Below are positions 2,604 to 58,340 of a stretch of DNA of 64,000 bases, piece by piece. The notes under the pieces are model-generated. The model had not been told where the DNA came from, did not search any database, and saw only the letters and a program-made list of their open reading frames with translations. Origin of the DNA: Streptomyces capitiformicae (GTDB taxonomy: Bacteria; Actinomycetota; Actinomycetes; Streptomycetales; Streptomycetaceae); assembly GCF_002214185.1 (NCBI RefSeq), contig NZ_CP022161.1:1178001-1242000 (forward strand), given 5' to 3'. The position numbers and the translations under genes were made by a program. The stretch's first letter is position 1, and each line of letters opens with the position of its first letter.

Positions 2604-2990
2604 GCCCCGGGGGGTTTGGGGCGGGCGGCCATCCGATCGGTGAGGAGATCCGGAGCCGGAAGCTCCGGGTGTGTGCGCGAGGGCACGACCAGGGCGAAGC
2701 TGGGGAGGCCCCGACCCGGTGTCGCCCACAGTCCCCTGTGGGCGGGGTGTATCTCTCATCTGGGGAAGAACCTACGGCAGGGAATGCGGTGACGACAGGC
2801 GAAAACGCGACCCGACATGCACCTTGCACACCTTCTTCACTCCCTCTGACCCTCATTCACAGGGAGCGGAATCCAGGTGCGGATTCCGGTTCCGGGAAGT
2901 GTGGGACGTCGGAGACGGATGAGGGATTCCGTATGCGCCCCGTGCGGGTGAGGGCTCAGTGACGGGATCGGAGCGGCATCGGATACGGAC

Positions 2991-4325
2991 TCAGATACGG
3001 GTGAACGCCTGCTCGATGATGTCGAGGCCCTCGTTCAGCAGGTCCTCGCCGATGACGAGCGGCGGCAGGAAGCGCAGCACGTTGCCGTAGGTGCCACAGG
3101 TCAGGACCAGCAGACCCTCCTGGTGGCAGGCCTTGGCCAGCGCGGCGGTCGCCTCCGGGTTCGGCTCCTTCGTCGTACGGTCCTTGACCAGCTCGATCGC
3201 GATCATCGCGCCACGCCCGCGGACGTCGCCGATGACGTCGAACTTCTCGGCCATGGCGGTGAGGCGGGCCTTCATGACCCCCTCGATCTGCTTCGCCCTG
3301 GCGTTGAGGTCGAGCTCCTTCATCGTCTCGATCGAGCCGAGGGCACCCGCGCAGGCGACGGGGTTGCCGCCGTAGGTGCCGCCCAGGCCACCCGCGTGCG
3401 CCGCGTCCATGATCTCCGCGCGCCCGGTGACGGCGGCGAGCGGCAGACCGCCCGCGATGCCCTTCGCCGTTGTGATCAGGTCCGGGACGATGCCCTCGTC
3501 CTCGCACGCGAACCACTGGCCCGTACGGCAGAAGCCCGACTGGATCTCGTCCGCGACGAAGACGATGCCGTTGTCGGAGGCGAACTGGCGGATGGCCGGA
3601 AGGAAGCCCTTGGCCGGCTCGATGAAGCCGCCCTCGCCGAGCACCGGCTCGATGATGATCGCGGCCACGTTGTCCGGGCCGACCTGCTTGGTGATCTGGT
3701 CGATGGCCTGCGCGGCGGCCTCCGAACCCGCGTTCTCCGGGCCGGTCGGCCAGCGGTAGCCGTACGCCACCGGCACCCGGTAGACCTCGGGCGCGAACGG
3801 GCCGAAGCCGTGCTTGTACGGCATGTTCTTGGCGGTCAGCGCCATCGTGAGGTTGGTGCGGCCGTGGTAGCCGTGGTCGAACACGACCACGGCCTGTCGC
3901 TTGGTGTAGGACCGGGCGATCTTCACGGCGTTCTCGACGGCCTCGGCGCCGCTGTTGAACAGCGCGGACTTCTTGGCGTGGTCACCCGGGGTCAGCTCGG
4001 CGAGGGCCTCCGCGACCTCCACGTACCCCTCGTACGGCGTGACCATGAAACAGGTGTGTGTGAAGTCCTGGAGCTGGGCGGAGGCCCGGCGGACGACGGC
4101 CTCGGCGGAGGCGCCGACGCTTGTCACCGCGATGCCCGAGCCGAAGTCGATCAGCCGGTTGCCGTCGACGTCCTCGACGATCCCGCCGCCCGCGCGCGCG
4201 GTGAACACCGGCAGCACGGAGCCCACCCCCGCCGCGACGGCGGCAATACGTCGGGCCTGCAACTCCTGCGACTTCGGTCCGGGGATGGCGGTGACGACGC
4301 GGCGCTCCTGAGGAAGTGCGGTCAT
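2991..4325 (-). CDS. gabT: 4-aminobutyrate aminotransferase (class III, PLP-dependent)
   Basis: This encodes 444 residues, the usual GabT length. It moves the amino group of 4-aminobutyrate to 2-oxoglutarate, giving succinate semialdehyde and glutamate. Class III landmarks are clear: FNSGAEAVENA (phosphate cup), DHGYHGRT, the VADEIQSG segment with the cofactor-pairing Asp, and TTAKGIAGGLPLAA carrying the Schiff-base lysine. The ATG at 4325 has an AGGAG 8-12 bases upstream. The open frame continues far upstream (to 7661), but that part lies antisense to the next gene and is not coding. With the neighbouring aldehyde dehydrogenase and PucR regulator it suggests a GABA/polyamine pathway. Confidence 0.95.
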   Translation of the reverse strand: MTALPQERRVVTAIPGPKSQELQARRIAAVAAGVGSVLPVFTARAGGGIVEDVDGNRLIDFGSGIAVTSVGASAEAVVRRASAQLQDFTHTCFMVTPYEGYVEVAEALAELTPGDHAKKSALFNSGAEAVENAVKIARSYTKRQAVVVFDHGYHGRTNLTMALTAKNMPYKHGFGPFAPEVYRVPVAYGYRWPTGPENAGSEAAAQAIDQITKQVGPDNVAAIIIEPVLGEGGFIEPAKGFLPAIRQFASDNGIVFVADEIQSGFCRTGQWFACEDEGIVPDLITTAKGIAGGLPLAAVTGRAEIMDAAHAGGLGGTYGGNPVACAGALGSIETMKELDLNARAKQIEGVMKARLTAMAEKFDVIGDVRGRGAMIAIELVKDRTTKEPNPEATAALAKACHQEGLLVLTCGTYGNVLRFLPPLVIGEDLLNEGLDIIEQAFTRI

Positions 4326-43268: not shown

Positions 43269-44569
43269 CGACCCTGATGTTCATCCTCGGCATAGTCGTC
43301 TTCGTGATCGGCCTGGGGTTCTCGATCGCCTGGCACGAGCTGGGCCACCTGTCGACGGCCAAGATGTTCGGCATCCGCGTACCCCAGTACATGGTGGGCT
43401 TCGGCCCGACGATCTGGTCGCGCAAGAAGGGCGAGACCGAGTACGGCATCAAGGCGATCCCGCTCGGCGGCTTCATCCGCATGATCGGCATGATCCCGCC
43501 CGGCCCCGACGGCCGGATCGAGGCCCGCTCGACGTCCCCGTTCCGCGGCATGATCGAGGACGCCCGCGCGGCCTCGTTCGAGGAGCTCCAGCCCGGCGAC
43601 GAGAGCCGCCTGTTCTACACGCGCAAGCCGTGGAAGCGCGTCATCGTGATGTTCGCGGGCCCGTTCATGAACCTGGTCCTCGCCGTCGTGATCTTCCTCG
43701 GCGTAATGATGACCTTCGGCGCCCAGACCACGACGACCACGGTCGGCAAGGTCTCGGACTGCGTGATCGAGGCCAGCGAGAACCGCTCCAAGTGCGAGAA
43801 GGGCGACGAGACGGCCCCCGCCAAGGCCGCGGGCCTCAAGCCCGGCGACAAGATCGTCGCGTTCAACGGCACCCCCGTCGAGGACTGGTCCGCGCTCCAG
43901 ACCGACATCCGCGCCAACCCCGGCAAGGAAGTCACCGTCACGGTCGAGCGCGAGGGCGAGAAGCTCGACCTCACCGCCACCCTCGTCAAGAACCTGGTCA
44001 GCAGGACCGACGGCGAGGGCGGCTACGTCGAGGGCAAGTACGACTACGCCGGCTGGTTCGGCTTCACCCCCGCCACCGACGTCCTCCCGCTCTCCTTCGG
44101 CGAGTCCGTGAACCGCATGGGCGACATGATGGAGAACGGCGTCGAGTCCCTGATCTCCCTGCCCGCCAAGATCCCCGCCCTGTGGGACGCCACCTTCGGC
44201 GATGGCGAGCGCGAGGCCGACTCGCCGATGGGCGTGGTCGGCGCGGCCCGCGTCGGCGGCGAGATCTTCACCCTGGACATCCCCGCCACCCAGCAGCTCG
44301 CGAGCTTCCTCATCCTGCTCGCCGGCTTCAACCTCTCCCTCTTCCTGTTCAACATGCTCCCGCTCCTCCCCCTCGACGGCGGGCACATCGCGGGCGCCCT
44401 GTGGGAGTCGGTCCGCCGAAACACGGCCAAGGTGCTGCGCCGCCCGGACCCCGGCCCGTTCGACGTGGCGAAGCTGATGCCGGTCGCGTACGTGGTGGCC
44501 GGAATCTTCATCTGCTTCACGCTCCTGGTACTGATCGCGGACGTGGTGAACCCGGTGCGCATCTCCTAG
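43265..44569 (+). CDS. Site-2 zinc metalloprotease (RseP/Rip1-type)
   Basis: This encodes 434 residues. The active-site HELGH (His24, Glu25, His28) lies in the first membrane span, a PDZ domain occupies about 150-270, and the third zinc ligand is Asp371 in the late LDGGH motif. The family cleaves membrane-embedded anti-sigma factors and remnant signal peptides. It is translationally coupled to dxr (ATGA), an arrangement common in bacteria. The anti-sigma substrates are not in this window. Confidence 0.93.
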
Positions 44570-44586
44570 TCACACGGCGTTCACGG

Positions 44587-44615
44587 CGGCCGGGCACCCT
44601 GGGTGCCCGGCCGCT
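44587..44615 (+). terminator. Intrinsic terminator after dxr-site-2 protease
   Basis: A perfect 13-bp stem (44587-44599 with 44603-44615) with a 3-base loop, followed by TTTCCC. It begins 18 bases after the protease stop. Confidence 0.75.
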
Positions 44616-44783
44616 TTCCCGTTCCGGCGGACCGCCTTCCGCACGGGTGGGGCGGCTGGGGCGGCTGGGGTGCATGGCCCGCGATGTGCTCGGGGCCAAG
44701 CCGGTGCCGTAATCTCGAAGCCTGGAGCCCGCCCGTACCGGGACCCGATCGATCCTGATCCACAACTTGGGGTTGCACAGCAG

Positions 44784-45941
<1,158 letters not shown>

Positions 45942-45942
45942 G

Positions 45943-45985
45943 GGGAGCGACCAGCCACAACGAACCCGCAGCCGCCCAAGCACAG
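45943..45985. repeat. Half-copy of the modular repeat (copy 5)
   Basis: Only the outer arm module is present (GAGCGACCAGCCACAACGAA followed by CCCGCAGCCGC), directly after the ispG stop. It matches the right arm of copy 2. Confidence 0.55.
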
Positions 45986-46073
45986 TTCCTCCCGAGCTAC
46001 AAGGCGACCGGCCACAGCCCCGCGGGGTATCGTGCGGGAATCAGCGCATACCCCCAGGGTGAGGCCCCCGCAC

Positions 46074-46928
46074 GTGTTGACCCAGACGACCACCAGGGTC
46101 CTCGAACCGAGTGACCTGGACGCCGCGCTCGCCGTCCTCGACCGCGAGCCGGTCGCGAACGCCTTCGTGACGTCCCGCGTCCAGGTCGCCGGCCTGGACC
46201 CCTGGCGGCTCGGCGGCGAAATGTGGGGCTGGTACGAGCACGGCGCCCTCACCTCCCTCTGCTACGCCGGCGCCAACCTCGTCCCCATCTGCGCCAACCC
46301 CCGCGCCGTCCGCGCCTTTGCCGACCGCGCCCGCCGGGCAGGCCGCCGCTGCTCCTCCATCGTCGGCCCCGCCGAATCCACGGCCCAGCTCTGGCGGTTG
46401 CTCGAACCCAGCTGGGGCCCGGCCCGCGAGGTCCGTACCCACCAGCCGCTGATGGTCACCGACCGGCTCCCCGACCCCGCCGACGTCACCCCGGACCCCT
46501 ACGTCCGTCGCATCCGCAAGGACGAGATGGAGACGATCATGCCGGCGTGCGTGGCCATGTTCACCGAGGAGGTCGGCGTATCCCCCCTGGCCGGCGACGG
46601 TGGCCTCCTCTACCAGGCCCGAGTGGCCGAACTGGTCGGCTCCGGCCGCTCCTTCGCCCGCCTCGACGCCGACGGCCGAGTCCTCTTCAAGGCCGAGATC
46701 GGCGCGGCCACCCCCCACGCCTGCCAGATCCAGGGCGTATGGGTCGCCCCCGAGCACCGAGGCCGGGGCCTGGCGGCCCCCGGCATGGCAGCGGTACTGC
46801 GCTACGCGCTGGCCGACGTGGCCCCGGTGGCGAGCCTGTACGTGAACGACTTCAACACGGCGGCGAGGCGCACGTACCGACGGGTGGGCTTCCAGGAAGT
46901 GGGCGCGTTCATGAGCGTCCTGTTCTGA
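46074..46928 (+). CDS. GNAT acetyltransferase with DUF4081-type N-terminal domain
   Basis: This encodes 284 residues. The N-terminal half (about 1-140) is the DUF4081-like degenerate GNAT domain. The C-terminal half has the acetyl-CoA-binding loop GVWVAPEHRGRGLAAPGM and the final NDFNTAARRTYRRVGF helix-strand. The substrate is unknown. GTG at 46074 follows GGGTGAGG; the TTG next to it is also possible. This gene is regularly seen after ispG in streptomycetes, although no link to isoprenoids is known. Confidence 0.85.
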   Translation: MLTQTTTRVLEPSDLDAALAVLDREPVANAFVTSRVQVAGLDPWRLGGEMWGWYEHGALTSLCYAGANLVPICANPRAVRAFADRARRAGRRCSSIVGPAESTAQLWRLLEPSWGPAREVRTHQPLMVTDRLPDPADVTPDPYVRRIRKDEMETIMPACVAMFTEEVGVSPLAGDGGLLYQARVAELVGSGRSFARLDADGRVLFKAEIGAATPHACQIQGVWVAPEHRGRGLAAPGMAAVLRYALADVAPVASLYVNDFNTAARRTYRRVGFQEVGAFMSVLF

Positions 46929-47066
46929 GCGCGGGGCTGTACCGATACGCGGCTCCGCCGCGATGGGGGTCCCCCCGCTCATGGGGGTCCCTCCCGCTCG
47001 AGCGAAGTCGAGAGTGGGGGAGAAGCCGTGAGTGAGGGAGCGACCAGTCCCACGACCCGCAGCCGA
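46925..47066. repeat. Modular palindromic intergenic element (copy 6)
   Basis: GCGCGGGGCTGTACCGATAC then GCGGCTCCGCCGC, two GGGGGTCCC boxes, CTCGAGCGAAGTCGAGAG, and an arm GAGCGACCAGTCCCACGACC followed by CGCAGCC. It fills the gap between the two GNAT genes. Confidence 0.6.
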
Positions 47067-47099
47067 TCAACTCCCCACGGTCCCCTGTAATCTCCCCCC

Positions 47100-47675
47100 A
47101 TGCGTCTACCCGGTCACGGACACGGCCATCGCCCCCGCCCCGACGACATCGTGATCGGCCCCCTGGACCTCTCCACCCACGTGGACGAGGCCCTCGCCGT
47201 CCAAGCCCTCGCCTTCGGCCTCGGCCCCGACGAGGTAGCCGTACGCCGCCAGATCGTCCTCCGCCACATGACTTACCTCGGCGCAAGGGCCCTCGGAGCA
47301 ACAACGGCCGCAGGCAGACTCATCGGCTTCGTCTACGGCATGCCCAACGACCGCACACACTGGTGGTCCACCGTCGTGGAGCCCTACCTGCGCGCCCTCG
47401 GCCACGAGGCCTGGCTGGACGACTCCTTCGTGATCACCGAACTGCACGTCCACCCGGCCTACCAGAACAAGGGCATCGGCCGCGCCCTGATCACCGCCAT
47501 CACCGACACCGCGACGCAGCCCCGCTCGATCCTCTCCGCGATCGACGTCGACAGCCCGGCCCGCGGCCTGTACCGCTCCCTTGGCTACGAGGACCTGGCC
47601 CGCCAGGTCGTCTTCCCCAGCGCCCCCAGGCCGTACGCCGTGATGGGAGCCCCCCTCCCGCTGCGCCGCCGCTGA
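47100..47675 (+). CDS. GNAT family N-acetyltransferase
   Basis: This encodes 191 residues, a single GNAT domain. The acetyl-CoA loop is HVHPAYQNKGIGRALIT, followed by AIDVDSPARGLYRSLGYE. The substrate is not identifiable. The ATG lies just after a run of C with no clear ribosome-binding site, so a leaderless mRNA or a slightly different start is possible. It ends 72 bases before proS. Confidence 0.85.
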   Translation: MRLPGHGHGHRPRPDDIVIGPLDLSTHVDEALAVQALAFGLGPDEVAVRRQIVLRHMTYLGARALGATTAAGRLIGFVYGMPNDRTHWWSTVVEPYLRALGHEAWLDDSFVITELHVHPAYQNKGIGRALITAITDTATQPRSILSAIDVDSPARGLYRSLGYEDLARQVVFPSAPRPYAVMGAPLPLRRR

Positions 47676-47747
47676 CCGATTTCCACGGTCCCGCACCACC
47701 CGGCTAACCTCCTGCCATCAGTCAACGGCAGCAGGAGTACGAGAATC

Positions 47748-49472
47748 ATGGCGAACCCACCGGTCCAGCGCATGTCCCAGTTGATGGCGAAGACGCTGCG
47801 CGACGACCCGGCCGACGCCGAGGTCCTCAGTCACAAGCTGCTCGTCCGCGCCGGTTACGTGCGCCGCACGGCGGCCGGCGTCTGGACGTGGCTGCCGCTC
47901 GGCAAGAAGGTCCTCGCCAACGTCGAGCGCATCGTCCGTGAGGAGATGGACGCGATCGGCGCCCAGGAGGTCCTGCTCCCCGCACTGCTGCCGAAGGAGC
48001 CGTACGAGGCGACCGGCCGCTGGGACGAGTACGGCCCGGAGCTGTTCCGCCTGAAGGACCGCAAGGGCGGCGACTACCTCCTCGGCCCCACCCACGAGGA
48101 GATCTTCACGCTGATCGTGAAGGACCAGGCGTCCTCCTACAAGGACCTGCCGGTGATCCTCTACCAGATCCAGACCAAGTTCCGTGACGAGGCCCGCCCC
48201 CGCGCCGGCATCCTGCGCGGCCGTGAGTTCCTGATGAAGGACTCGTACTCCTTCGACACCGAGGACGAGGGCCTCGCCCAGTCGTACGCCCTGCACCGCC
48301 AGGCCTACCAGAAGGTGTTCGAGCGCCTCGGCCTCGACTACCGCATCTGCGCCGCGACGGCCGGAGCGATGGGCGGCTCGAAGTCGGAGGAGTTCCTGGC
48401 CCCGGCCGGCGCCGGCGAGGACACCTTCGCGGACTGCCCCGCCTGCGACTTCGCGGCCAACACCGAGGCGATCACGTACGAGTTGAAGCCGGTGGACGGT
48501 TCCGCGGTGCCCGCCGCCGAGGAGATCCCGACCCCGGACACCCCGACCATCGAGACCCTCGCCGCCCACCTCGGCGTCCCGGCCTCCGCCACCCTGAAGA
48601 ACCTCCTCGTCAAGGTCGACGGCGAGATCGTCGCGGTCGGCGTCCCCGGCGACCGCGAGGTCGACATGGGCAAGGTCGAGGCGCACTTCGCCCCGGCGGT
48701 CGTCGAAATGGTCACCGAGGCGGACTTCGCGGGCCGCCCCGACCTGGTCCGCGGCTACGTCGGCCCGCAGGGCCTGGGCGAGAAGGTCACGTACATCGCC
48801 GACCCGCGCGTGGCCCCCGGCACCTCCTGGATCACCGGCGCCAACAAGGACGCCACGCACGCGAAGAACGTTGTCGCCGGCCGTGACTTCGAGGTCGGCG
48901 AGTACGTCGACGTCGTGGTCGTCCAGGAGGGCGACCCCTGCCCGAACTGCGGCACCGGCCTCAAGCTCGACCGCGCCATCGAGATCGGCCACATCTTCCA
49001 GCTCGGCCGCAAGTACGCCGACGCCCTCAAGCTCGACGTCCTCGGCCAGAACGGCAAGCCCGTCCGCGTCACCATGGGCTCGTACGGCATCGGCGTCTCC
49101 CGCGCGGTCGCCGCCCTCGCCGAGCAGACCGCCGACGACAAGGGCCTGTGCTGGCCCGAGGAGGTCGCCCCGGCCGACGTGCACGTCGTCGCCGCCGGCA
49201 AGGCCCTCCAGACCGAACTGGCCCTCGACGTCTCCGAGAAGCTGCGCACGGCCGGCCTGCGTGTCCTGGTCGACGACCGCGCCGGTGTCTCCCCGGGCGT
49301 GAAGTTCACCGACTCCGAGCTCATCGGCGTACCGAAGATCCTGGTCGCGGGCCGCCGCTCAGCCGAGGGCGTCCTGGAACTGAAGGACCGCCGCACCGGC
49401 GAGCGCGAGGAGCTGACGGTCGACGAGGCGATCGCCCGCCTGACCGCGTCCACCGCGTCCACCGCGTCCTGA
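47748..49472 (+). CDS. proS: Prolyl-tRNA synthetase (bacterial type with INS editing domain)
   Basis: This encodes 574 residues of class II synthetase. Motif 1 lies in the first 100 residues, motif 2 is at [20 protein letters not shown], and motif 3 is [17 protein letters not shown] near 450. The insertion (about 225-400) is the YbaK-like editing domain that hydrolyses Ala-tRNA(Pro). A C-terminal anticodon-binding domain follows. Three 9-base repeats (ACCGCGTCC, 49448-49470) add TAS repeats at the very end. CAGGAG precedes the ATG; an upstream CTCCTG could pair with it. Confidence 0.96.
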
Positions 49473-49581
49473 GGAAACCCTCAGAATCTTCTCCCGAGGC
49501 CTATAGGTACCTCACAGGCTTCTCTCAGACCGTTCCCCGACCGTAGGGCGTGACAGAACGTCACTACGGAGGGGAACGGTC

Positions 49582-49926
49582 ATGGCGACCAGAGAACGAG
49601 GTGCCGTCGCGGGCATCCGCGGAGGGGCTCGGCGTACGGCGGCCGCGGCCGCGGCGGTGACGCTCCCGGCCGCGGCCGGGATGTTCGCGCTGATCGGCAG
49701 GGTGCAGGCGGACGCGGACACGACGGCGAGCGGCAGCAACTCGGGTTCCGCGTCGTCGAGTTCGTCGAGTTCGAGCAGCGACACCGGTACGGACAGCAGC
49801 ACGAACTCGTCGAGCTCTTCCTCGGACAGCTCGACCGACTCCTCCTCGGACCTCCAGTCCTCCTCCGACGGCATGACCTCGGCCACGGACGACTCGGCGG
49901 CGGACTCGACCTCGGGGGCGTCGTGA
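49582..49926 (+). CDS. Exported Ser-rich protein with ApbE-type flavinylation-like motif
   Basis: This encodes 114 residues. After a basic start there is one Ala/Leu-rich hydrophobic segment (about 18-42), a signal or anchor. From about 48 to the end the protein is almost only Ser, Thr, Asp and Gly. Residues 96-102 read DGMTSAT, one substitution away from the Dxx(S/T)GAT motif whose Thr receives FMN from ApbE. CGGAGGGG precedes the ATG. Its TGA overlaps the ATG of apbE (TGATG), so the two are coupled. Typical ApbE targets have a folded FMN-binding domain; none is present here. It could be a stripped-down flavoprotein or a decayed target that kept only the anchor and linker. Confidence 0.7.
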   Translation: MATRERGAVAGIRGGARRTAAAAAAVTLPAAAGMFALIGRVQADADTTASGSNSGSASSSSSSSSSDTGTDSSTNSSSSSSDSSTDSSSDLQSSSDGMTSATDDSAADSTSGAS

Positions 49927-50903
49927 TGACCGTGTCCACGACCGACCGACCCACGGCCGCCATGGACTGGCGGGCCCTTGGAACGAGGGTCCGCCTGGTC
50001 ACGACCGACCCGGCCCTGCTGGACTCCTGCAACCTGCTCCTCGCCCGCCACCTGGCCGAGGTCGACGCCGCGTGCAGCCGGCTCCGCGCGGACTCGGAGC
50101 TGTCGGCGCTGAACGCCGCCGAAGGCCGACCGGTCAAGGTCAGCCCCTTGCCGGCCGAGGCCCTGGCGGTGGCCCTGCGCGCCGCCCGGGCGACGGACGG
50201 CGCCGTGGACCCCACGGTCGGCTCGGCGATGGAGGCCCTCGGCTACGACCGCGACTTCACCCTGGTCCAGGAGGACGACCGCCCGGTGCGGCTCACGGTG
50301 AAGCTTGTGCCGGGCTGGAGCCTGGTCGAGCCGGCCCGCGCCACGAACACGGTGACCCTCCCGCCCGGTGTCAGCCTGGACCTGGGCGCCACGGCCAAGG
50401 CCTGGGCGGCCGACAAGGCGGCACACATGCCGGCCCGCGCCGCCGACTGCGGCATCCTGGTCGGCCTCGGCGGCGACACGGCCGTCGCGGGCGAACCCCC
50501 GGCCGGCGGCTGGCGCATCCGCGTCCAGGACGAGACGGGCCCGGTGGACGACCTCCCGGCCCACGGCTCGTACGCCACGGTCGGCATCCGCAGCGGCGGC
50601 CTCGCCACCTCCGGCACCACCGCCCGCCGCCGTCGCCGAGGCGACCGACACCTCCACCACATGGTCGACCCCCGCACAGGCACCCCCGCCGCCACTCCCT
50701 GGCGCACCGTCTCGGTGGCCGCCGCCACCTGCGCCGACGCCAACGCGGCGAGCACAGCGGCCCTGGTGAAGGGCGAGCACGCGGTCCGCCGGCTGTCGCG
50801 GCTGGGCCTGCCGGCCAGGCTGGTCACGCACGACGGCACGGTCGTCACGACCCCGGGCCGGCCGTCCGCCACTCCCAGCCCGGACGCCGAGCTCACCTCA
50901 TGA
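49926..50903 (+). CDS. apbE: FAD:protein FMN transferase
   Basis: This encodes 325 residues. ApbE moves FMN from FAD to a threonine of exported redox proteins. The conserved pattern is visible: EVDAACSRLRADSELSALNA near the start, AVDPTVGSAMEALGYD, SLDLGATAKAWAADKAA (FAD/Mg), ILVGLGGDTAVAG, and HHMVDPRTGTPA near the C-terminus. No lipobox or signal is seen, so it is likely cytosolic or membrane-associated. The ATG at 49926 shares one base with the upstream stop; an adjacent GTG at 49923 is equally possible. No ferric reductase gene, the usual third member, is intact here. Confidence 0.9.
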   Translation: MTVSTTDRPTAAMDWRALGTRVRLVTTDPALLDSCNLLLARHLAEVDAACSRLRADSELSALNAAEGRPVKVSPLPAEALAVALRAARATDGAVDPTVGSAMEALGYDRDFTLVQEDDRPVRLTVKLVPGWSLVEPARATNTVTLPPGVSLDLGATAKAWAADKAAHMPARAADCGILVGLGGDTAVAGEPPAGGWRIRVQDETGPVDDLPAHGSYATVGIRSGGLATSGTTARRRRRGDRHLHHMVDPRTGTPAATPWRTVSVAAATCADANAASTAALVKGEHAVRRLSRLGLPARLVTHDGTVVTTPGRPSATPSPDAELTS

Positions 50904-51025
50904 GCTACGAGATCCGCCTGCTCCCTCTCCAGGACACGAGCGCGGCCCTGATCGGCGGCTACCCGGCCCCTGCCGCACAACGACCATCCCCCCTACGGTG
51001 CAACGCCCCTCACACCCCCGACTAA
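50900..51025 (+). CDS. Possible 41-residue coupled peptide after apbE
   Basis: An open frame beginning MSYEIRLLPLQDTSAALIGG, whose ATG overlaps the apbE stop (ATGA). The first 25 residues look protein-like; the rest is Pro/Arg-rich. It ends 4 bases inside the convergent APH-like gene. It could be the start of a lost third gene of the flavinylation operon or simply chance. No family recognised. Confidence 0.3.
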   Translation: MSYEIRLLPLQDTSAALIGGYPAPAAQRPSPLRCNAPHTPD

Positions 51026-51969
51026 AGCCACCCCGCGAACTCCAACAACAACTCCGCATCCCGCGGCCGTCCGACCCTCCGCGCCCGCACCCCCGACTCC
51101 ACAGCCCGGAACAACGTCCACCCCCGCAACCGCTCCTGATCCACATCCAACGACTCGGCAAGCTTCCTCACCCGCCGCCGAGTGGTCGCGGCCCCCGACG
51201 GCGAAGCGATCAGATCCTCCACCCGATCCCGAACCAGCCGAGCCAGATCGAACGCACACTCACCGATCACCGGATCAGGCCCCACGGCCAACCAGGGCAA
51301 CCGCTCCCCGGCGAGCACCTTGCTCTGCCGGAAGGTCCCGTGCAGCAACCGTTCCTCGGGAGCCGCGGCAAGCAGTTCCTCCCGTGCGGCAAGGGCGGCG
51401 TCGACCAGGGCCCGTACCTCGCTGTCCCCGGCGGAGCCGCCCCGCATCGCCTCGGCCTGCCGCCCCGTCCGCTCCGCCACGGTCTCGAACACATGCGCCG
51501 CGGGCGGCTCGACCCACAGCCGCCGCAGAGTCGCGGCGGCCTCCAGCAGGGCCTTCGCCTCCGGCAACGACCGCACCGACAGATCGGGATGCAGTCGCTC
51601 CAACAGCAGCACGCCATGACTGTCACCGGGATTCAGCAACTGCACCGCACCCCGCCCGTCCCAGTGGGCGAGCGCCGCCCGCTCGCTCTCCGGCCGCGCC
51701 CGCTCCGGCGCCAGCTTCAGCACGGCCGGAGTGCCGTCGATCTGCCGTACGAGGAGCACCAGACTGCTGCGCCCGCCGGGCGCCTGCACCCGCTCCACGG
51801 TCAACTCGCGTAGAGCGACGGCCTGTTGAACGAGATGCGGCAGCGCCTCCAGCCACTCGTCCGCCCCGCCGCCCCCACCCAGCCGACTCTCGGCGAGCGC
51901 GCGCACAAGCCGCTGCGGGGGTTCGAAGGACTCGAACGCCTCGGACGCCTCGAAAGCCTTGCGAGTCAT
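51022..51969 (-). CDS. Aminoglycoside/hydroxyurea phosphotransferase-like pseudokinase
   Basis: This encodes 315 residues with the fold pattern of the APH(6)/Hur family: ATP-lobe strands (SLVLLVRQIDGTPAVLKLAP with the Lys), LLNPGDSHGVLLLERLHP, and the C-lobe. The catalytic loop that should read HGDxxxxN is HGTFRQSKVL: Asp is Thr212 and the metal-binding Asn is Lys217. The second metal Asp (usually in IDP) is Gly230. All three residues needed for transfer are therefore absent and the protein is probably not an active kinase. It is the last gene of a three-gene minus-strand unit with a ferritin-like protein and a lipoprotein. Confidence 0.8.
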   Translation of the reverse strand: MTRKAFEASEAFESFEPPQRLVRALAESRLGGGGGADEWLEALPHLVQQAVALRELTVERVQAPGGRSSLVLLVRQIDGTPAVLKLAPERARPESERAALAHWDGRGAVQLLNPGDSHGVLLLERLHPDLSVRSLPEAKALLEAAATLRRLWVEPPAAHVFETVAERTGRQAEAMRGGSAGDSEVRALVDAALAAREELLAAAPEERLLHGTFRQSKVLAGERLPWLAVGPDPVIGECAFDLARLVRDRVEDLIASPSGAATTRRRVRKLAESLDVDQERLRGWTLFRAVESGVRARRVGRPRDAELLLEFAGWL

Positions 51970-51996
51970 GCGCGAGTCGTTCCTTCCAAGCAGCGA

Positions 51997-52461
51997 TCAG
52001 GTGTGCGGGGCCGCCGGCGCCGCCGAAGACACCGCACCGGCCGCCCGCTCGGCGAGACCAGGGAAGGCTACGCTTCCTCCCCGCCACCGAACCGCCCGCA
52101 CCGCCGCTTCGCGCAGCGCCTCGGCAGCCGCGGCACGCCGACCATCCTCGGATGCCCGTACGAGGTCGGAGTACACCCCGGCCACCCGTTCCTCCAACTC
52201 GGCGGCGAGTCGTACGGCGGAGTCGGCGTCCGTCACCGGGAAGGGCAGCGCGTACGCGGCGGCCGAGGCCTCGGGCCTGCCGCCCAGGTCCCGTACGGTC
52301 CGCGTCAGCTCGTCCCGCCGGGCCCGGTGCGCGTCGTACGCCTCCCGCGCCTCGCTCTGCCGGGGCTCGCCGATCTTCCCGCCGACGACCCCGTATCCGT
52401 ACACGGCGGCATGCTCGGCCCCGAGCGCCGCCTGCACCGCCTTCAGCTCCTCGCTGCTCAC
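51997..52461 (-). CDS. Ferritin-like DUF4439 protein
   Basis: This encodes 154 residues, all helical, beginning SSEELKAVQAALGAEHAAVY. The Glu/His pattern in helix 1 and the spaced Glu residues are typical of DUF4439, a ferritin-like four-helix fold. Whether it binds iron is unknown. Its GTG overlaps the stop of the lipoprotein gene (GTGA), so the two are translated together, and the APH-like gene follows after 27 bases. Confidence 0.8.
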   Translation of the reverse strand: MSSEELKAVQAALGAEHAAVYGYGVVGGKIGEPRQSEAREAYDAHRARRDELTRTVRDLGGRPEASAAAYALPFPVTDADSAVRLAAELEERVAGVYSDLVRASEDGRRAAAAEALREAAVRAVRWRGGSVAFPGLAERAAGAVSSAAPAAPHT

Positions 52462-52988
52462 TTCGCACCCTCCACCAACAAGTACGCGTGCCCGGCCCCC
52501 GCCGCCGCCACGGACGCCATCAACCGCGCCACCTCACCCGGCACCTCCAGCAGCGCCTTGGCCCGCCCGTCGGCAAGCTTCCGCTCGGCAGCGGCCAGTT
52601 CGGTGAGGGCGGCCTTCGGGTCGGCGGGCACGGGCGAGGGGGAGGCCGAAGCGGAGGGTGAGCCCGAGGGGGAGGCGCTCGCCGTGGCCGTACCCTTCCC
52701 ACCCCCGAACGCCTGGACATGCCGTACGACCTCCGCCCGCAGCGGCGTCAGCAGCGCGGCCAGATCCGGATGCGCCGCGATCACGGCGTCGTACCGCTCC
52801 ACGAGCCCTCCACTGTCCTTCGCCGCCCGGGCCCGCGCCTTCTCCACCACCGACGGACCGCCACCGGCGGCATCCGACCCCTCACCCCCGGCCGAACACC
52901 CCACGAGCAGACCCGCACCCGCGGCCCCGACCAGCAGACTCCTCCTACGCGGACCCGAAGGGGTACGCGACGGCACGGTGAACGACAC
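52458..52988 (-). CDS. TAT-type lipoprotein, helical
   Basis: This encodes 176 residues. RRRSLLVGAAGAGLLVGC is a twin-arginine-type signal with lipobox LVGC. The mature part is helical, with a Thr/Ala/Ser/Pro-rich linker in the middle (about 100-125). The GTG at 52988 was chosen because AGGACG precedes it and a signal begins soon after; the frame extends 34 codons further up without support. Its neighbour suggests it is the lipid-anchored partner of the ferritin-like protein. Function unknown. It is divergent from rimP. Confidence 0.75.
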   Translation of the reverse strand: MSFTVPSRTPSGPRRRSLLVGAAGAGLLVGCSAGGEGSDAAGGGPSVVEKARARAAKDSGGLVERYDAVIAAHPDLAALLTPLRAEVVRHVQAFGGGKGTATASASPSGSPSASASPSPVPADPKAALTELAAAERKLADGRAKALLEVPGEVARLMASVAAAGAGHAYLLVEGAK

Positions 52989-53179
52989 GACAGACGTCCT
53001 AGGGGATTCGTACGAACAAAGAAGCGGTGTGATCACGGTACCCGCGCATCTGCTCCAAGGCCGCCACCACCGCGCCCCACGGGAACCCACTTGGACGGCA
53101 ACACCCCAGCGGAGCGGCTACCCTTTGACCTGACACGCGCCCTACCCACAACAGCACACGCGGCCGAGGAGTCACCCGG

Positions 53180-53692
53180 ATGAGCACCACCCAGAGCGAG
53201 AGGCTGCGAGAACTGCTGGAACCGCTCGTACGCTCCCAGGGCCTGGATCTCGAAGAGATCGCAGTGGACTCGGTCGGACGCAAGCGGGTGCTGCGCGTGG
53301 TCGTCGACTCCGACGAGGGTGCCGATCTGGACGCGGTCGCCGACGTCAGCCGCGCGCTCTCGGCCAAACTGGACGAGACGGACATGATGGGCCAGGCGGA
53401 GTACACCCTGGAAGTCGGCACCCCGGGCGCCGAGCGCGCCCTCACCGAGCACCGCCACTACCGCAGAGCGGTGGACCGGCTGGTGAAGTTCCAGCTTCAC
53501 GATGGCGGCGGCGAGTTGGTCGCCCGCATCCTGACCGTGGACGACGACGGCCTCGACCTCGAGGTGCCCGGAGTGAAGGGCCGCAAGGCCACCACCCGCA
53601 GGCTCGCCTTCGACGAGATCGACAGGGCCCGCGTCCAGGTCGAGTTCAACCGCAAGGACAAGAAGGACATGAAGGAAGAGGAGGAGGCGTAG
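53180..53692 (+). CDS. rimP: Ribosome maturation factor
   Basis: This encodes 170 residues with the two RimP domains: an alpha/beta N-domain ([31 protein letters not shown]) and an SH3-like C-domain, ending in a lysine/glutamate-rich tail. It assists 30S subunit maturation. It heads the rimP-nusA-infB operon and is separated from nusA by two bases. Its promoter must lie in the 191-base gap from the divergent lipoprotein gene; no clear hexamers were found. Confidence 0.93.
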
Positions 53693-53694
53693 CC

Positions 53695-54681
53695 GTGGAC
53701 ATCGACATGAGTGCCCTCAGGGGCTTGGTTCGGGAGAAGGAGATCTCCTTCGACCTGCTCGTCGAGGCGATCGAGGCGGCCCTCCTCATCGCCTACCACC
53801 GCACCGAGGGAAGCCGCCGCCACGCGCGCGTGGAGCTCAACCGGGAGACCGGCCATGTGACCGTGTGGGCGAAGGAGGACCCCGAGGACCTGGAGGAGGG
53901 GCAGGAGGCGCGTGAGTTCGACGACACCCCGTCCGGCTTCGGCCGTATCGCCGCCACCACCGCCAAGCAGGTGATCCTGCAGAGACTGCGGGACGCGGAG
54001 GACGACGCCACGCTCGGTGAGTACGCGGGGCGCGAGGGCGACATTGTCACCGGTGTGGTCCAGCAGGGCCGCGACCCGAAGAACGTGCTCGTCGACATCG
54101 GCAAACTGGAGGCCATCCTGCCTGTGCAGGAGCAGGTCCCCGGGGAGTCGTACCAGCACGGCATGCGGCTGCGGTCGTACGTCGTTCGAGTGGCGAAGGG
54201 CGTGCGCGGTCCGTCCGTCACGCTGTCGCGCACGCATCCGAACCTGGTCAAGAAGCTCTTCGCCCTTGAGGTGCCGGAGATCGCCGATGGGTCGGTCGAG
54301 ATCGCGGCCATCGCACGTGAGGCGGGTCACCGTACGAAGATCGCGGTCCGCTCCACCCGCTCCGGGCTGAACGCCAAGGGCGCCTGCATCGGTCCGATGG
54401 GCGGTCGTGTGCGCAATGTCATGGGCGAGCTGAACGGCGAGAAGATCGACATCGTCGACTGGTCGGACGACCCGGCCGAGATGGTGGCGAACGCGCTGTC
54501 GCCGGCCCGGGTCTCCAAGGTCGACGTGGTGGACCTCGCGGCCCGCTCCGCGCGCGTGACGGTCCCCGACTACCAGCTGTCGCTGGCGATCGGCAAGGAG
54601 GGCCAGAACGCCCGTCTCGCCGCCCGTCTGACCGGCTGGCGGATCGACATCCGCCCGGACACCGAGCAGCCGTCCGAATAG
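53695..54681 (+). CDS. nusA: Transcription termination/antitermination factor NusA
   Basis: This encodes 328 residues, the short actinobacterial form without the C-terminal acidic repeats of proteobacteria. The order is an N-terminal RNA-polymerase-binding domain (1-125), S1 domain (about 130-200, [10 protein letters not shown]), KH1 with [10 protein letters not shown] and KH2 with [19 protein letters not shown] start follows rimP after two bases, so the genes are coupled. It acts with NusB/NusG in rRNA antitermination and in pausing. Confidence 0.96.
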
Positions 54682-54818
54682 TCCCCGAAGTGCGACCGGC
54701 GGTTGATCGGGAATAGATACAAGCCGCAGGTCGTTGAGATCACGTCAGTTATATGCGCGGCAACTGTTCGATTCTTGCCCCAAAGGGGTGAGGTCGGTGC
54801 GGGGAGGTAGACTTAGCA

Positions 54819-55097
54819 GTGTCTGGCCGGACGCGTGCCCGCGCATGCCCTGAGCGCACCTGTGTGGGGTGCAGGCAGCGAGCGGCCAAGACCGAGCTGC
54901 TGCGCGTCGTGGCGATCGAGGGTGAATGCGTCCCCGATCATCGCGGTACGCTGCCCGGCCGGGGTGCGTACGTACACCCCGCCCCGGTCTGTCTCGACCT
55001 GGCGGTTCGCCGCCGGGCGTTCCCACGGGCGCTGCGTGCCCCGGGACCGCTCGACACAGTGGCGTTGCGCCTCACCGTCGAGCAGGCAACACAGTAA
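54819..55097 (+). CDS. ylxR: YlxR/RnpM family RNA-binding protein
   Basis: This encodes 92 residues. The family signature is RTCVGCRQRAAKTELLRVV, then GRGAYVHP. YlxR proteins bind RNA; in Bacillus one (RnpM) modulates RNase P. The GTG start lies 137 bases after nusA. It sits at its standard place between nusA and infB. Confidence 0.92.
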   Translation: MSGRTRARACPERTCVGCRQRAAKTELLRVVAIEGECVPDHRGTLPGRGAYVHPAPVCLDLAVRRRAFPRALRAPGPLDTVALRLTVEQATQ

Positions 55098-55244
55098 GAC
55101 GTGTCGCACGGAACCTCCGTGCGGCCCTGGTACCCCGCGAGTTGGAAGTAGGTCGAGATTGCGATGAGCACTCGATGAGCACGCGATGAGTACGCCCATG
55201 AAGTAGCGACGGTCCGGACGCAACCCGGACCTAAAAGGAGCGAA

Positions 55245-58340
<3,096 letters not shown>

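Follow-up and report, generated by a model that had tools for sequence, protein, structure and literature searches.

What does a short protein with no recognisable domain do at the head of a gene for a flavin transferase? This question is raised by a locus in the 64,000-nucleotide stretch of Streptomyces capitiformicae DNA that we analysed (hereafter the window). An open reading frame for a protein of 114 residues (49582..49926, plus strand), here called the carrier, runs directly into an apbE gene (49926..50903, plus strand). Its stop codon TGA (49924-49926) overlaps the ATG of apbE at 49926, and the TGATG overlap described in the initial annotation is thus real. We consider it quite likely that the 114-residue protein represents a family of minimal ApbE substrates made up of an N-in/C-out helix, a flexible tether and a terminal FMN site, and that the copy in the window is a remnant of such a system.

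The carrier chain begins with a basic segment, continues through a single hydrophobic helix and ends in a low-complexity tail rich in Ser, Thr and Asp. The predicted anchor helix spans residues 16-42 (49627..49707, plus strand; hydropathy peak 1.9), and the tether spans residues 43-107 (49708..49902, plus strand). This bears out the earlier description of a 114-residue protein with a hydrophobic anchor and a Ser/Thr/Asp tail. The AlphaFold model places a helix at residues 16-42 and coil after it, with a mean pLDDT of 52.5 and no residue above 70. Since confidence is low throughout, helix included, the model gives no confident fold, and disorder of the tail, with which it is consistent, is not proven. 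The carrier had no Pfam or NCBIfam match above cut-off, and FMN_bind (PF04205) gave no match in it at E<=0.1. The 35 carriers that were scanned contained neither FMN_bind (cut-off E<=0.01) nor any other Pfam domain, so there is no sign of a domain lost from the carrier protein. The suggestion that we are looking at a domain-loss relic thus does not apply to the protein. It applies in part to the locus, where the cytochrome and ferredoxin genes that accompany the pair elsewhere are missing, along with most of the NuoF-like gene.

The neighbouring gene product is, by its sequence, a member of the FAD:protein FMN transferase family (PF02424; 172.6 bits against a cut-off of 25.6, E=1.6e-50), with predicted activity. 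It matched 13 solved FMN transferase sequences at E<=0.001, through the LDLGATAK, LGGD and HHxxDPxTG stretches in the three for which alignments were made. The window ApbE is off-consensus at 3 of 65 conserved columns (F53L, W236R and W312R), and the mean number of such departures in 23 close relatives is 0.26. Two ordinary FMN_bind/ApbE loci are present elsewhere in the genome. At L060 (about 5.5-6.8 kb; genome C1 6.370 Mb), an FMN_bind reading frame with two DAVSGAT motifs adjoins an ApbE gene.

Comparison with relatives provided the main insight into the function of the carrier. Relatives were first gathered with an ApbE query against 61 genomes, and a script run over the matches showed that small proteins precede most orthologous apbE genes, with freely variable linkers and constant last residues. 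Upstream open reading frames were then picked blind to any motif, on position, hydropathy, tail length (15-170 residues permitted) and codon bias only. The first set comprised 121 stretches (the window and 120 others), which omit the weakest ApbE matches of the genus and class searches. The first set gave 110 picks; Ser is the last residue of 104, and 102 close with [ST]-x-[GA]-S. No pick came from 11 of the 121 stretches, and in two of these apbE lies at a contig edge. A second set, the best 80 named loci, gave 76 picks, of which 70 have a terminal Ser and 65 the whole of [ST]-x-[GA]-S. Across both sets, 15 of 201 loci yielded no pick. Removal of duplicates left 173 distinct picks, and the terminal tetrad [ST]-x-[GA]-[ST] is present in 155 of these, or in 164 if it is sought inside the last ten residues; the stricter [ST]-G-[AG]-[ST] ends 128 of the 173. 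Among the 18 picks that lack the terminal motif are some evidently wrong reading frames, SGSS ends (L038, L249, L250) and chains with the motif slightly upstream (L217, L256, L261, L262, L266, L279). Evidently wrong frames such as L134 and L202 remain in the counts of 110, 76 and 173.

In the window, the last seven residues of the carrier (DSTSGAS, residues 108-114; 49903..49923, plus strand) are a full match to the published ApbE motif D-x-x-[S/T]-G-A-[S/T], whose minimal length is seven residues according to a 2025 review (PMC12052999). We propose that this is the FMN attachment motif, with S114 as the acceptor. The terminal form D-x-x-[ST]-G-A-S-stop is shared by 27/27 carriers of the Streptomyces clade; these members were listed by hand, and L134 (a wrong pick), L139 (which gave no pick) and the majority of the named Streptomyces loci are not among them (L220, L221 and L225 are). 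The wider family is looser than the published motif. Position -6 is Asp in 62 of 186 picks and His in 44, so that only part of the family has the Asp, and distant members often have another residue in place of Gly at -2. According to the same review, replacement of the motif Asp has a minor effect, the tag works best at chain ends, and Thr is preferred as acceptor although Ser is accepted (PMC12052999); in the family the acceptor is mostly Ser. Two further counts are to be read with care. A profile search of predicted proteins, in which 7994 candidates were scored, recovered 73 relatives, 72 of which end in [ST]G[AG][ST]; the profile includes the motif, so this count is not independent. These 73 are hypothetical or uncharacterized proteins wherever they are named, and none has a precomputed Pfam domain. 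Likewise, alignment A2 consists of 35 hand-chosen rows, none lacking the terminal Ser, and the invariance of S114 there is therefore no independent count.

The genes that follow apbE in the relatives point to an electron transfer system. Their usual order is carrier, apbE, a Ferric_reduct cytochrome (PF01794), a NuoF-like protein (PF01512, PF10589) and a ferredoxin (PF13459). PF01794 is matched within the apbE clusters of relatives, for example in L033 (E=1.7e-10). All three partners, counted as profile matches within the fetched stretch, were found in 100 of the 121 stretches (either strand, fragments included), and several of the remaining 21 are short, ending with the contig or the fetched stretch. 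Among the best 80 named loci, for which only the plus strand was counted, 60 had all three. In L046 the partners lie on the strand opposite to apbE. The cytochrome has four conserved His, each in 104 or 105 of 105 sequences, which is enough for two haems; the ferredoxin has three conserved Cys (93 or 94 of 94); and the NuoF-like protein has Cys 298, 318, 321 and 361 in 98 to 101 of 103 sequences, with a further Cys 390 in 96 of 103. In addition, the minus strands of L042 and L046 encode a second carrier ending in ATSGGS that is immediately followed by another cytochrome gene and lacks an adjoining apbE (in L046, carrier 3358-3765 and cytochrome 2675-3361). This ties the carrier to the cytochrome itself. 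An electron acceptor was sought among ten flanking genes from six loci, which held no common oxidoreductase: they encode three histidine kinases, a response regulator, a Na+/H+ antiporter, ABC and FtsX parts, TetR and WYL regulators and a GtrA-type protein. Histidine kinase genes lie near the operon in the distant relatives L264, L271 and L298, accompanied by a response regulator gene in L264, and may hint at regulation.

The system is widespread among soil bacteria. Of the genomes sampled, 45 of 392 from the genus and 80 of 394 from the class, the latter spread over 52 of 137 genera, encode an ApbE of this subfamily (E<=1e-45). The best 80 named loci include Streptomyces, Catenulispora, Frankia, Streptosporangiaceae, Acidimicrobiia and Solirubrobacterales, as well as MAGs labelled Chloroflexi and Dormibacterota, although such labels can be wrong.

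Alternative readings of the conserved C-terminus were weighed against these data. The initial annotation had placed the flavin on T102, within DGMTSAT (residues 96-102; 49867..49887, plus strand). That motif is present and resembles D-x-x-[S/T]-G-A-[S/T], with Ser in place of Gly, a substitution at a position where exchange of Gly for Ala is reported to leave about half the flavinylation (PMC12052999). It is also peculiar to the window, being found at its place in 1 of the 27 clade members, and patterns of the type D..[ST].A[ST] occur elsewhere in the tail of three others. Conservation among orthologues had been chosen beforehand as the test of this site, and DGMTSAT as the attachment site is rejected on the clade comparison (1/27 against 27/27 for the terminal motif); T102 is almost certainly not the FMN site. 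The proposal of a minimal domainless carrier paired with ApbE survives with the terminal motif in its place, and the comparison with relatives and their conserved C-terminus support it well. Another possible explanation for the terminal conservation is that it is a by-product of translation: carrier stop and apbE start often overlap or touch, the last carrier codons are rich in G (GGG, GGC, GGT, GCG) and are located where the Shine-Dalgarno sequence of apbE is expected, and such codons, and hence Gly, would be kept for that purpose. This explanation is very improbable. The motif [ST]x[GA]S is absent from three other junctions of the same operons (0/108, 0/66 and 0/82; 0/256 in total), controls that are unmatched for start-codon overlap, and this result makes the artefact unlikely. 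Terminal Ser codons are mixed (91 TCN and 13 AGY, n=104), Ser or Thr at -3 has no Shine-Dalgarno role, and some relatives carry Thr at the acceptor position or the motif a few residues inward. Inside the tails the tetrad occupies 3.0% of positions (236/7758), and it is kept at the end of 27 of 32 Ser-poor tails. Judging from these sequences, selection on the protein is a better account of the terminal motif than a translation artefact. It is also conceivable that the terminus serves a role other than FMN attachment, such as docking to the cytochrome or a different modification. In favour of this, the motif is more exact in its terminal placement and laxer at -2 and -6 than the published one, and carriers are found beside a cytochrome alone. 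We nevertheless hold this to be unlikely, given the fit to the published motif, the constant pairing with apbE and the lack of any other recognisable candidate ApbE substrate in the operon.

Based on these findings, we propose that the neighbouring ApbE would move FMN from FAD onto the terminal Ser of the carrier (S114 in the window). The helix would be oriented N-in/C-out, leaving the tail outside. Electrons could then pass from NADH to the NuoF-like protein, to the ferredoxin, to the two-haem Ferric_reduct cytochrome, to the tethered FMN and finally to an extracytosolic acceptor, with the flavin swinging on its tether to meet the cytochrome and then the acceptor. The orientation is predicted from charge. 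In 167 picks (the 173 minus L134, L202, L196, L195, L274 and L293, dropped solely on tail length and charge), the 25 residues N-terminal of the anchor contain a median of 7 Lys or Arg and the tail a median of one, so the positive-inside rule predicts that the tail is outside. The tail in these picks has a median length of 77 residues (range 32-168) and a median of 91% S/T/G/P/A/Q/N/D. No consistent twin-arginine motif for Tat export was seen when the carrier alignment was inspected by eye. Meanwhile, no leader is evident by eye at the N-termini of 17 ApbEs of carrier operons, whereas the review describes ApbE as typically membrane-anchored and periplasmic (PMC12052999). Hence, modification of the carrier before its export must be assumed. 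A cytosolic ApbE would also suit a flavinylated tail that never leaves the cytosol and carries electrons within it; we think this improbable, since the charge distribution puts the tail outside and the two ApbEs encoded beside FMN_bind genes in this genome also start without an evident leader.

The copy in the window no longer has the electron transfer module. Downstream of apbE is a scar, an open reading frame of 41 codons (50900..51025, plus strand) in which the start of the cytochrome gene is fused to the middle of the NuoF-like gene; the rest of both genes and the ferredoxin gene are absent (blastn against L031-L033 and L121). The first five codons correspond to the start of the cytochrome gene and the next stretch to the middle of the NuoF-like gene, the two pieces matching L121 at 80% and 88%, at sites about 1.35 kb apart. 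The Ferric_reduct, NuoF and ferredoxin profiles had no match within window positions 44001-56000, so that PF01794 in the apbE cluster, the mark of MsrQ-like systems, is represented at this locus by the scar only. On the minus strand, the locus is adjoined by a gene of the APH(6)/hydroxyurea-kinase family (51022-51969; PF04655, E=4e-78, far below the NCBIfam resistance cut-offs) and by a DUF4439 ferritin-like gene (51997-52461); the operon in L031-L033 is likewise succeeded by DNA of the kinase gene.

These deletions suggest that the window carrier and ApbE are probably the decaying relic of a working family. Repeated loss of the system seems to be under way in this clade: in L122 the cytochrome start is joined to ferredoxin pieces, in L225 almost nothing is left of the module and, in L220, the cytochrome reading frame is shifted, possibly by sequencing error (one draft contig). 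Yet the carrier and apbE frames are open in the window and DSTSGAS is intact, and the pair may still work, the ApbE flavinylating a carrier fed by another reductase or serving other substrates. Dedicated partners can sit apart from apbE, as in L042 and L046, and the genome holds a distant module (L058:7246-10220; genome C1 about 2.125-2.128 Mb) with a NuoF-ferredoxin fusion (NuoF 38% identity) and a Ferric_reduct-like protein with a long C-terminal extension (cytochrome 35% identity), a possible alternative electron source. Its 18-kb stretch contained no ApbE match and no short open reading frame with the terminal motif. Pairwise dN/dS (NG86, 290 codons) is ordinary between the window and four other close relatives (0.22-0.33); against L225, the nearest relative compared, it is 0.54, a value to which the decay of L225 itself may contribute. 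Against continued function stand the disappearance of the dedicated module here and, by different routes, in L122, L225 and perhaps L220, the loss from the L225 ApbE of the segment bearing HHxxDPxTG, and the three departures of the window ApbE from conserved columns. We therefore consider a functioning pair a minority possibility, and a relic whose function has probably been lost the better reading of this copy.

For the family as a whole, we think it likely that we are dealing with a "flavin on a string", in which an unfolded tail tethered to the membrane bears FMN on its final residue and offers it no protein pocket, and which occurs in Actinomycetota and in the MAGs labelled Chloroflexi and Dormibacterota. 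Such a carrier architecture would be added to those already known, folded flavin domains and multi-flavinylated repeats. A domainless tethered flavin carrier was not found described at the level of titles and abstracts in open-licence PMC literature (preprints lying outside that scope), which does not prove its absence. If true, these findings have implications for the understanding of ApbE-dependent electron transfer, which would need no flavin-binding fold; a terminal tag on a flexible tether would be enough, and the exposed flavin would resemble a tethered soluble shuttle more than a flavoprotein. They would also point to a probable substrate in the many operons that combine apbE, cytochrome and NuoF genes, and make these operons testable.

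The FMN_bind (PF04205) carriers, such as NqrC and RnfG, share with the family described here the transfer of FMN by ApbE to a Ser or Thr of a [S/T]GA[S/T]-like motif and the role of membrane-anchored electron carrier, which for our family is proposed. They differ in that the present carrier has no FMN-binding fold around the motif, which is at the very end of the chain. The kind of system that joins apbE to a cytochrome is already known; the domainless carrier is the kind that was not found described. MsrQ-like flavinylation clusters number 1797 and are broadly conserved in Actinobacteria, 31 of them with a NuoF-like gene (PF10589), according to a published census (PMC8238504). They likewise place apbE beside a PF01794 two-haem cytochrome, but they typically hold a gene for an FMN-binding domain, whereas the carrier here is domainless. 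To enter that census, a cluster needed one of four target genes to encode a signal peptide or lipidation site (PMC8238504), a filter that would exclude the carrier loci if their ApbEs truly lack a leader and no further target gene lies close by. This suggests that a census based on known domains and signal peptides would miss such carriers. The ApbE-associated FMN_red proteins of Lactococcus also bear their flavinylation site on an unstructured C-terminal extension, which is near a folded flavin-binding site that the present carrier does not have (PMC11334425). A man-made parallel to the terminal motif is the engineered flavin-tag, in which ApbE needs no more than seven residues placed at the end of a chain (PMC12052999), hinting at what the family would do in nature, where the motif belongs to a carrier on a membrane tether rather than to a label.
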